DNA of 10,828 nt, taken from Propionibacteriaceae bacterium. Its GTDB lineage: Bacteria > Actinomycetota > Actinomycetes > Propionibacteriales > Propionibacteriaceae. Where the stretch lies: positions 1 through 10,828 of the forward strand of contig WRGV01000026.1 in NCBI GenBank assembly GCA_009787035.1, in the 5' to 3' direction. Shown one piece after another: positions 7,503-9,129 of the stretch. How positions within the stretch are numbered: position 1 is the first letter of the stretch; every line of letters starts with the position of its first letter. The notes under the pieces are model-generated. The model searched no databases, had not been told where the DNA came from, and was given only the letters and a program-made list of their open reading frames with translations. Both the position numbers and the translations under genes were made by a program.

Positions 7503-8213
7503 ATGAACGCGCTCAACGACCTTGTCGCAAACGCCGGCCTCGTGCCGATGCTGCTGCCCGCCTGGCTCAACCCTGAACACATCATCAACGCCCTCGGCAA
7601 CTGGGCGCTGTGGGGCGTGGCCGTCATCGTCATGATCGAATGCATCTTCTTCCCGATCCTGCCCGGCGACTCGCTGCTGTTCACCGTCGGCATGTTCGTG
7701 TCGCTGGGCAGCATCCACTTCGGCGGCCTGGCCAGCGGCTGGGTGCTGCTGATCTGCATCGTCGTGCTGATCATCGCCGCCATCGCCGGCAACATCGGCG
7801 GCTACTGGTTGGGCAGCCTGATCGGGCCGCCCATCTTCAAACCCCGACCCGGGCTGGTCGGACGCATCTTCAACCCCGTCTACGTGGACAAAACCCACGC
7901 CTTCTTCGAGAAACACGGCAACCAGGCGCTCATTTTGGCCCGCTTCGTGCCCGTCGTCCGCACCTTCGTGACGATCATCGCCGGCGTGTCCAAGATGGGC
8001 TTTCGCATGTTCATCCACTACACCGCCATCGGCGGCGTGATCTGGGTGGCCGTCGTCACCGTGCTCGGATACTTCCTCGGCCAGGTGCCGTTCATCCATA
8101 ACAACATCGAGGCCGCGCTGGTGCTGATCGTGCTGATCTCGGTCATCCCCATGGTCATCGAGTACCTGCGGCACCGCAAGGAGAACGCCGCGCAGCCCGA
8201 GGCCGCCGAGTAG
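7503..8213 (+). CDS. DedA-family membrane protein (VTT/SNARE-associated domain)
   Basis: A 236-aa integral membrane protein of the DedA family. Members act in membrane homeostasis, and some are flippases recycling undecaprenyl phosphate or phosphatidylethanolamine. The four charged residues reported as essential in E. coli YqjA (E39, D51, R130, R136) have counterparts: E46 in a helix, D56 in PILPGDSLLF (51-60), and R147 and R153 in LARFVPVVRTF (145-155). The re-entrant-loop regions and the closing GGVIW (177-181) are typical, and two hydrophobic segments (about 175-195, 203-220) end the protein. Length is normal. I chose the ATG at 7503; an upstream in-frame TTG at 7479 lies inside the promoter region. 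There is no Shine-Dalgarno sequence, so the transcript is probably near-leaderless. The tRNA-Glu gene lies 72 bp downstream. Confidence 0.95.
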   Translation: MNALNDLVANAGLVPMLLPAWLNPEHIINALGNWALWGVAVIVMIECIFFPILPGDSLLFTVGMFVSLGSIHFGGLASGWVLLICIVVLIIAAIAGNIGGYWLGSLIGPPIFKPRPGLVGRIFNPVYVDKTHAFFEKHGNQALILARFVPVVRTFVTIIAGVSKMGFRMFIHYTAIGGVIWVAVVTVLGYFLGQVPFIHNNIEAALVLIVLISVIPMVIEYLRHRKENAAQPEAAE

Positions 8214-8246
8214 GGACGGACGCCGCGGCCCGGCCCGGGTGCCGAG

Positions 8247-8277
8247 TTGGGCCACAGGCGCATGCGTCCACTACCAT
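8247..8277 (+). promoter_or_regulatory. Probable promoter of the tRNA-Glu gene
   Basis: TTGGGC (8247-8252) and TACCAT (8272-8277) are separated by 19 nt and end 8 bp before the tRNA. The -10 hexamer fits TANNNT; the -35 match and spacing are imperfect. Initiation would fall just before the tRNA 5' end. Confidence 0.45.
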
Positions 8278-8285
8278 GGGACCGC

Positions 8286-8358
8286 GTCCCCATCGTCTAG
8301 CGGCCCAGGACTCAGCCCTTTCAAGGCTGCAACGGCAGTTCGAATCTGCTTGGGGATA
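8286..8358 (+). tRNA. tRNA-Glu (anticodon UUC)
   Basis: A full cloverleaf of 73 nt. The acceptor stem pairs GTCCCCA (8286-8292) with TGGGGAT (8351-8357), the first pair being G-U. The D arm is at 8295-8311. The anticodon stem CAGCC/GGCTG (8313-8317, 8325-8329) closes the loop CTTTCAA, giving anticodon TTC at 8320-8322. The T stem is GGCAG/CTGCT with loop TTCGAAT (8339-8345). A at 8358 is the discriminator base, and CCA is not encoded. The tRNA feeds translation and, in actinobacteria, tetrapyrrole synthesis. Its 3' end abuts the structured element at 8359. Confidence 0.97.
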
Positions 8359-8469
8359 CTGGGTTTGTGCCTGGCGTCGTTGCAGCCGCCCTTGCCTACC
8401 TGGCGTAGGCGCCGCCCCGCGTTGGATCGCGGGGTCGGGCGTCTGTCGCCTCGCCAGACGCAAACCCAG
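8359..8469 (+). ncRNA. Y-shaped structured RNA candidate directly 3' of tRNA-Glu
   Basis: The outer helix pairs 8359-8376 with 8452-8469: 16 Watson-Crick pairs, one G-U and one mismatch out of 18. The same register continues inward through a partly paired zone to a 5-bp helix CGCCC/GGGCG (8387-8391 with 8437-8441). The top carries two hairpins: GCCTAC/GTAGGC (8394-8399, 8405-8410, loop of 5) and CCCCGCG/CGCGGGG (8415-8421, 8428-8434, loop of 6). No T-run follows, so it is not a standard terminator, and no good coding frame crosses it. It would be co-transcribed with the tRNA and freed by tRNA 3' processing. I do not recognise it as a known RNA family; it could also be a palindromic mobile-element remnant. 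Confidence 0.42.
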
Positions 8470-8499
8470 GTGAGTCACGGGCCTGGTCGGCGGCTGCCC

Positions 8500-8575
8500 G
8501 GGACAAACTTGCTTCTCGGACCTCGGAATCGGCCGAAAATCGCCGATTTCGCGGTCTCAGCATCCTGTTTGTCCC
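8500..8575. repeat. Long one-register hairpin with 9-bp perfect outer arms
   Basis: Arms GGGACAAAC (8500-8508) and GTTTGTCCC (8567-8575) are perfect. Pairing continues inward in the same register through scattered pairs, then GACC/GGTC (8519-8522, 8553-8556) and a 10-pair helix 8524-8533 with 8542-8551 that has one G-U. The 8-nt loop is at 8534-8541. About 28 of 34 positions pair. It lies between the tRNA-linked element and the lipoprotein promoter. It could be a terminator without a T-run, a small RNA, or a miniature inverted-repeat element. Confidence 0.4.
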
Positions 8576-8603
8576 TCCGGTGGGCCCTGAGCCGCCTCGT
8601 TCG

Positions 8604-8609
8604 TACACT
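8604..8609 (+). promoter_or_regulatory. -10 hexamer of the lipoprotein gene
   Basis: TACACT at 8604-8609 fits TANNNT and would give a leader of roughly 37 nt. That leader contains a good Shine-Dalgarno sequence (GGAGAGGG, 8642-8649) before the GTG start. No -35 match is clear. The non-protein stretch 8214-8652 otherwise holds the tRNA and the two RNA structures listed. Confidence 0.35.
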
Positions 8610-8652
8610 GAAGGGGTAGTCAGAGGGGGCGCAACGCCAGCGGAGAGGGTGC

Positions 8653-9129
8653 GTGGTGACGGTGACGGGCCGGACACGGGTGTGCGCAGCCATGTGCGTG
8701 CTCGCTGTGTCGGCGCTGGTGGCGTGTGGGACAACCACACCGGCAGCGCCGGGCGTTTCACCATCGGTCAGCGCGGCGCCGGTGACGACGCCAACGCCAT
8801 CGGTGCCCACTACCATGGGGCGGCTGGTCGGCGGCGTGTACACGGTGGGCGGCCCGACACAGCCCGCGACGGCCACGCCGATGCCGGCCCCGACGCCGCG
8901 CCCGATAGCAGCGACGGTGATCGCGATGCCTCAGGGCGGCACCAACGGCCAGGGCTACGAGACGACCTGCGCAGCCGACGGGTCGTACAGCCTGACACTG
9001 CCGCCAGGCACCTACGACGTGAGTGCGACGTTCGGCGCCCAGGACACGGGCCTGCACGCAACTCCGCGACAGGTGACCATCACGGCCGGCTCCACGACCC
9101 AGGTTGATCTGTCGTTCTACGTCCCGTGA
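8653..9129 (+). CDS. Exported lipoprotein with a prealbumin-like (carboxypeptidase-regulatory) domain
   Basis: A 158-aa protein. The N-terminus is a lipoprotein signal peptide: basic start (TGRTR), hydrophobic core, and lipobox LVAC with the lipidated Cys at 25. It should be anchored to the outer face of the membrane. A Thr/Pro/Ala-rich linker (about 26-90) follows. The C-terminal part (about 95-158) reads like a carboxypeptidase-regulatory or transthyretin-like beta-sandwich repeat: AADGSYSLTLPPGTYDVSAT, then HATPRQVTITAGSTTQVDL. This class often binds wall or carbohydrate partners; no specific ligand can be named. The start is the GTG at 8653, with GTG 8656 an alternative; GGAGAGGG at 8642-8649 supports both. 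It stands alone, downstream of the tRNA and RNA structures. Confidence 0.87.
   Translation: MVTVTGRTRVCAAMCVLAVSALVACGTTTPAAPGVSPSVSAAPVTTPTPSVPTTMGRLVGGVYTVGGPTQPATATPMPAPTPRPIAATVIAMPQGGTNGQGYETTCAADGSYSLTLPPGTYDVSATFGAQDTGLHATPRQVTITAGSTTQVDLSFYVP

Follow-up and report, generated by a model that had tools for sequence, protein, structure and literature searches.

The window analysed here, a stretch of 10,828 nucleotides, is contig C26 of a Propionibacteriaceae genome of 2.14 Mb in 393 contigs, with an estimated completeness of 81%. It carries, next to a tRNA-Glu gene, a strongly folding palindromic element, and the features of this locus are the following:

8286–8359, plus strand: tRNA-Glu, anticodon TTC (ARAGORN 8286–8359; Rfam RF00005 8286–8358, 53.5 bits)
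8359–8469, plus strand: Y-shaped palindromic element, almost certainly a divergent copy of a dispersed family (fold, BLAST to contig C78, covariance model R2)
8359–8391, plus strand: left trunk arm, partner of 8437–8469, starting at the tRNA end (MFE structure)
8379–8395, plus strand: family core motif GTTGCAGCCGCCCTTGC (exact 17-mer)
8393–8411, plus strand: hairpin A, the apical hairpin common to the family (fold; alignment with the C78 copies)
8414–8435, plus strand: hairpin B, an extra arm (fold; gap in the alignments to C78a and C78b)
8437–8469, plus strand: right trunk arm with GGGCGTCTG and CGCCTCGCC, which read GCGTCTG and CGCCTTGCC in the family (fold; alignment)
8500–8575, no strand assigned: second palindrome GGGACAAAC...GTTTGTCCC (−43.5 kcal/mol for 8495–8584)

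On the plus strand, 8359–8469 has an MFE of −73.9 kcal/mol against −47.8 ± 3.6 kcal/mol for 200 dinucleotide shuffles (z −7.36), none of the 200 folding as low, and the Y-shaped structure proposed in a preliminary description of this DNA, which had named the comparison with shuffled sequence as a possible refutation, is therefore real. As was also described, the trunk runs in a single register (coordinates summing to 16828) from the pair 8359/8469 to the pair 8391/8437, with 28 of its 33 positions paired and the other five being symmetric mismatches, and the hairpins at 8393–8411 and 8414–8435 complete a three-way junction. The second of these hairpins, placed between the apical hairpin and the right arm, has no counterpart in C78, was not seen in the other own-genome copies printed, and is the reason why the window copy is Y-shaped. 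The start of the trunk was likewise correctly placed, at or directly after the last base of tRNA-Glu (8358 by Rfam, 8359 by ARAGORN). This tRNA-Glu has no encoded CCA (ATAC is followed by TGGG), and the element starts at the CCA position; CCA would have to be added to this tRNA, whose precursor would bear a very stable 3′ trailer. CCA is encoded behind tRNA-Glu in three of the four congeners read (G002, G004, and G005) and not in G006. The second palindrome lies directly downstream of the element and lacks the family core, so it stands outside the family count; its seeds gave scattered matches over the fetched loci, apart from the window's own re-fetched copies.

In a BLAST search of the own genome, the element matched contig C78 at 92% identity along 37 nt (E 1.1e-8) and had weaker matches on C78 and C98. 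The copies share the core GCGTTG...CGCCTTGCC, written more fully as GTTGC(A/G)G(C/T)CGCCCTTGC, and a layout of core, variable apical hairpin, GGCGG..CG..CGCCTTG, and outer arms, the latter varying from copy to copy, yet being complementary within each copy. In the window we find the core GTTGCRGYCGCCCTTGC, the apical hairpin, and the paired arms. With up to three mismatches, the 17-mer core has one match in the window against 0.07 expected; in the whole genome it occurs exactly five times (window, C78, and three times on C98) and once with one mismatch, and at up to three mismatches it is not enriched (43 places vs. 62 for the backward control). These looser matches have no weight alone, being fewer than those of the control, and membership therefore rests on the exact matches, BLAST, and the structure models. 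Elsewhere, at least 117 stretches of the contig collection contain the exact 17-mer, with unrelated phyla among those listed, and we treat them as chance; around the one match inspected in a Propionibacteriaceae record (L120), the sequence is unlike the element.

Two covariance models were built, R1 from ten copies and R2 from 32. Each lists 48 places in the own genome, R1 at E 1 or better with a few weak or reverse-strand copies, and R2 with 45 of them at E < 0.01, the training copies matching by construction. The window copy, used in neither model, matches R2 over 8360–8468 with 31.2 bits and E 0.001. The family is short, protein-free, bounded by terminal inverted repeats, and present in many copies, as MITEs are. 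We hold it as nearly certain that the window stretch is a member of this dispersed palindrome family. The earlier remark that no known family was recognized holds for Rfam, given that only the tRNA in the window reached the gathering threshold, and that three matches at six loci with other copies were all far below their gathering scores.

The pairing of the arms is constrained. RNAalifold on the 32 copies gave 21 pairs, 18 of them with double changes, and 88.5% of the cells pair in the extended structure; double-change cells number 213 vs. 71 ± 8 in shuffles, and covariation is 0.527 vs. 0.192 ± 0.013 in shuffles and at most 0.107 with a slid partner, these counts not being independent events because the copies within the genome are related and partly mosaic. 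The covariation that the preliminary description had looked for behind tRNA-Glu in related genomes exists, then, among the copies within one genome and not among the tRNA-Glu trailers of relatives.

Several own-genome copies stand in tandem arrays with periods of about 81–126 bp, on C78 (L039/L257), C54 (L192/L255), C196 (L199), and C8 (L253), and on these contigs mosaic copies combine identical arms with different apical hairpins. A further array on C98 (L040, 457–760) has three copies 83 bp apart directly behind tRNA-Thr (457–530), the later ones without a matching left arm. In part of the own-genome copies, a weakly conserved tail like NNTGTCCGTAGGG follows 3′ of the palindrome, and a mini-hairpin like AGGCTTCGCCT is found in the 3′ flanks of several copies; tail and mini-hairpin are possibly remnants of a longer right arm.

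The placement of the family relative to genes was counted over 45 places, namely 42 printed copies plus those on C326, C4, and C33, the third copies of the C54, C78, and C98 arrays and the weak matches on C47, C211, C58, C256, C257, and C269 being outside this census. After setting aside seven later members of tandem arrays, five places at contig edges, and C244 (a weak match within coding-like sequence, E 0.22), 32 assessable first copies remain. As many as 28 of them start on or shortly behind the stop that ends a long upstream ORF, including C65 and C231, which pass a looser ORF test and fail the stricter GC3 limit; the stop triplet forms the first three bases of the palindrome in 22 copies and starts 3–14 nt before it in six. 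Two more follow tRNAs, tRNA-Glu in the window and tRNA-Thr on C98, and the last two, C2a and C8c, are unanchored, C2a being so counted with a 98-codon frame ending 36 nt upstream. All 30 gene-end copies have one and the same polarity, with the window copy, directly behind tRNA-Glu, among them.

By a strict test (100 codons, GC3 0.78, within 5 nt), no gene stop was found at the right end of any copy. A looser scan finds frames with GC3 0.43–0.77 ending at most 1 nt from the right end in eight copies (C111, C2b, C54b, C8a, C176, C38, C268, and C309), of which C111 is borderline with 110 codons and GC3 0.77; these frames were not counted as genes because either end of the palindrome supplies a stop of its own. 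Among the 25 upstream proteins considered, which exclude those of C4, C33, C326, and C2a, 20 match an NCBIfam family at E 1e-10. Most of these families are ordinary ones: DnaN, GuaB, CrgA, LCP, methylmalonyl-CoA mutase, L9, S9, thymidine phosphorylase, NrdJ, ketol-acid reductoisomerase, Mfd, PRPP synthase, GlnE, pyruvate phosphate dikinase, serine dehydratase, Ung, and thymidine kinase. Several of these proteins reach the last position of their profile (DnaN 367/367, S9 130/130, Ung 225/225), and therefore those genes are not truncated; the element sits on the stop codon of dnaN and behind rpsI.

The family is also found beyond this genome. In six congeners, R2 gave four weak matches in G002 and none at E 0.1 in the other five, and in the taxonomic family, 10 of 198 genomes, the own one included, match at E 0.001, with longer palindromes (about 165–180 bp) around the same core and, in some genomes, locus-specific arms. 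R1 found matches at E 0.01 in nine of 57 relatives, only weak ones besides the own genome. In the class, probably Actinomycetes to judge by the Streptomyces matches and by CrgA and NapA-like neighbors, the gapped core pattern TGGCNGCGTTG..CGCCTTGCCA occurs in 23 of 394 genomes, again counting the own one, and one match of its backward control was seen (G555). One of the 23, G440 (L321), looks like chance, with no palindrome in its fold. By eye, the inverted repeat at L339 seems to reach into the last codons of two convergent ORFs.

BLAST against plasmids with the window, G342, and G238 elements, and against phages with the G233 element, found no match; a Streptomyces copy, in turn, finds 67 places in 43 plasmid records (its own included), all of them Streptomyces. 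Twelve Streptomyces elements were folded, nine with gene annotation and three without usable annotation, H3 being outside this set. Five of the nine annotated elements start on the stop codon of a CDS (H1, H2, H10, H30, and H34) and four lie off stop codons (H29, H31, H32, and H33). At H10 and H30, the other end of the element is the stop codon of the convergent gene, and at H1 the convergent stop lies slightly beyond the element end.

In the genome G238, the terminal inverted repeat TNAGAGCGYGTNTGAGATC occurs at 103 places with up to two mismatches (control 0) in elements of about 66, 91–97, and 164–170 bp. Identical 3-bp flanks were found in 10 of the 20 G238 elements with both ends in view, and 33 of the 40 flanks read TNA. 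In Streptomyces, TA stands at both ends in 8 of the 12 folded elements, by eye, with ends such as TA-GGGGGTGTCG...CGACACCCCC-TA. Ends such as GAGCGTGTTTGAGATC, flanked by TNA, and GGGGGTGTCGTTTGGATC, flanked by TA, resemble in end and target alike those of the IS5 family, to which they may belong. In the own genome, no direct target duplication was found at the TGA copies, where a left TGA meets a right TCA, so that the triplet belongs to the palindrome and not to a direct duplication; in the TAG copies, with CTAG at both ends, inverted and direct repeats are indistinguishable, and neither TA nor TNA flanks the window copy. The own genome also presents signs of mobility in its tandem arrays and in the same arms found at different loci, given that the arm sequence TAGCCACGACG, stop triplet included, recurs at several loci with unrelated genes.

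By inspection, no transposase with matching ends was identified among the ORFs beside lone repeats at seven G238 loci, nor a mobilizer at 17 further lone-repeat loci of G238 inspected for end repeats only, nor a transposase among the CDS at the four Streptomyces loci that have both gene annotation and lone ends; the H31 element, though, has an IS110 transposase gene at a distance of about 460 bp. The lone ends of G238, where an autonomous IS was sought, are variants, deletion forms (66 and about 91–97 bp), N-gaps, and one interrupted copy. At L401 and L402 of G238, assembly N runs fall within element copies, as if the hairpin breaks the assembly, and at L377 (G238:C57), near 2201, an element is interrupted by the sequence TGTCCAGTTTTTCGTGT, presumably resembling an IS256-type end.

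Putting these features together, the reading we favor, and consider somewhat probable, is that the stretch is a copy of a non-autonomous transposable palindrome (MITE-like) of high-GC actinobacteria that targets TA/TNA. A transposase acting in trans would direct its insertion to TA/TNA; among such sites, the one that a GC-rich genome tolerates would often be a stop codon, and the insertion would re-create the stop codon so that the gene survives. Since TAG, TAA, and TGA all contain TA or TNA, and the duplication would restore the stop, this is a simple account of the stop-codon position, and it also gives an account of the convergent cases, in which neither gene loses its stop. At tRNA genes, the element would start at the mature 3′ end, the window copy would have acquired its second hairpin, and a co-transcribed element would form a 3′ hairpin that may, incidentally, protect the transcript or terminate it. 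Among the options of the preliminary description, a palindromic element using the tRNA as landing site came closest, the palindrome belonging indeed to a dispersed family, but the tRNA is not the usual site, the other copies being mostly at protein-gene stop codons. The poor fits to transposition are the complete polarity, an own genome without direct repeats, and the mobilizer not found. Symmetric DNA transposition would not give one polarity in 30 of 30 copies, and this counts against it; either the short own-genome copies have a different origin, for example as internal segments of longer elements that became fixed at gene ends, or a single polarity is retained by selection on the 3′ end. 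Because of the inverted triplets, this complete polarity, and the window copy without a TA/TNA flank, we hold the transposition mechanism lower than membership in the family.

In a rival reading, the primary role is at the RNA level, with the element working as a 3′ hairpin for termination, exonuclease block, or tRNA/mRNA 3′ processing, and with selection for this role keeping its arms paired and fixing its polarity and position. The gene 3′-end position and complete polarity of the anchored copies, the strong covariation, the long hairpins between convergent genes in Streptomyces, and the better fold of the window copy as sense strand (−73.9 vs. −69.2) all speak for it. So do three column pairs with a conserved U-G in 79 of 96 cells, which otherwise fit no strand account given. 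However, no terminator-like site with a T-run was found at 8150–8700 (0 found, 0.3 expected), and the strands behave in the 32 copies differently from what RNA pairing predicts: there is no sense-strand wobble excess over the stems (outer helix, G-U 8 vs. A-C 26; inner helix, 26 vs. 23), and just 7 of the 32 are more stable as sense strand, the antisense folding better in most. The lack of a G-U excess over A-C favors a DNA-level cause, or neither strand in particular. Neither can the family be a general terminator, because it occupies only 45 places in 2.1 Mb and has none at E 0.1 in five of the six congeners. We give the RNA role a clearly lower chance than the transposable palindrome, as an unlikely alternative.

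Slightly more doubtful still is a broader idea, in which a class-wide system puts a conserved folded core, within interchangeable complementary arms, in one fixed polarity at stop codons and at the ends of tRNAs, where it is actively targeted or kept as a portable 3′-end module and is not passive debris. Such a module could work in RNA end formation, or could belong to a folded-strand insertion mechanism reading the stop triplet.

We consider it improbable that the palindromes arise by DNA-level palindrome correction, through template switching or hairpin-primed copying, spreading outward from the core and halted by selection on reaching coding sequence. It would explain the stop-codon boundary without any insertion there, and the pairing at the left boundary agrees with it: 25 of 34 copies have a pair or wobble at position 0 and 6 of 33 at position −1 (9 of 43 copies, partial, broken, or at contig edges, being left out), so that pairing covers the stop codon, reaches one base into the upstream gene (the final base of its last codon), and goes no further. 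The missing strand-specific wobble excess and the locus-specific arms of some genomes also speak for it. Nevertheless, the TAGCCACGACG arms recur with their stop triplet at several unrelated genes, so the arms travel with the element, and the direct 3-bp flanks of G238 (10/20) speak against correction as well.

A function specific to tRNA-Glu, as a new small RNA or as a regulatory trailer, has the start at the tRNA end and the very stable fold in its favor but is very improbable, and neither of the two RNA proposals of the preliminary description, a small RNA released by tRNA processing or a trailer controlling tRNA maturation, is supported as such a function. The same family stands mostly behind protein genes, and once behind tRNA-Thr; tRNA-Glu is not followed by the element in the four congeners read (G002, G004, G005, and G006), G001 and G003 having given no tRNA match and so lying outside this comparison; no G-U excess is present; and no sigma-70-like promoter came up at 8150–8700 in a consensus scan, which carries less weight where GC is high. 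A different hairpin, AAATGCC...GGCATTT, stands behind tRNA-Glu in G006 (L044, C60). Finally, integron-type attC recombination sites, whose motifs are RYYYAAC and GTTRRRY in this order, are also hairpins of similar length folded as single strands directly after genes, and the antisense fold is the better one in most copies, but 0 of 42 copies have the two motifs in order on either strand and many neighbors are housekeeping genes, leaving this identity practically negligible.

A repeat family common to many actinobacteria and placed on or behind gene stops would affect 3′ ends, and also assembly, terminator prediction, and claims of new RNAs beside tRNAs. The rule we offer is that a TA/TNA-targeting palindrome would accumulate at the stop codons of GC-rich genomes, its insertion restoring them.

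With regard to known systems, the family resembles intrinsic terminators in having a GC-rich hairpin right behind genes, and differs from them in lacking a T-run at 8150–8700, in being much longer, and in being dispersed with a shared core; with no site of hairpin plus T-run in that part of the window, the window copy does not fit this identity. MIRU are actinobacterial repeats that overlap stop codons and form tandem arrays without being palindromic; as far as this general description goes, our family is like MIRU in stop-codon overlap and arrays and unlike it in palindromy. The IS5-family insertion sequences make TA/TNA target duplications, and the likeness to them consists of the ends and TA/TNA flanks only, no transposase having been found in the loci inspected. 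By title and abstract, none of the literature found on palindromes or MITEs at the stop codons of actinobacteria or of Streptomyces describes the family, which may be in print elsewhere, and the core strings gave only matches unrelated by title.

The REP/BIME sequences, associated with RAYT transposases, have a GT(A/G)G head and, in a published table, lengths of about 20–40 (PMC2817692). The family is like REP in being a GC-rich imperfect palindrome, in its arrays, and in its extragenic position, and many of its copies have a foot, (G/C)T(A/G)(G/A), similar to the head at the base of the REP hairpin. The family is longer (about 85–170 bp vs. roughly 20–40), and its foot base-pairs and is not conserved, unlike the REP head. 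The foot varies by locus (CTAG, GTAG, CTGA, GTGA, CTGG in the window, and others), so that membership in REP fails on the conserved GT(A/G)G head.

The closest match is to bacterial MITEs such as Correia/NEMIS, RUP, and YPAL/RU-2, which are palindromic, protein-free, intergenic, RNA-folding sequences of less than 200 bp, the targets of YPAL being reported to span or adjoin dyad symmetries (PMC2229807). Compared with these MITEs, our family is GC-rich, its core is common to genomes whose terminal repeats differ, its own-genome copies sit on the stop codon with one polarity, and no partner transposase was identified. The description of a MITE fits except for the target duplication in the own genome and the missing mobilizer: the family is likewise shorter than 200 bp, palindromic, without protein, dispersed between genes, and RNA-folding, and in the G238 relatives it is MITE-like in its inverted repeats and identical 3-bp flanks.
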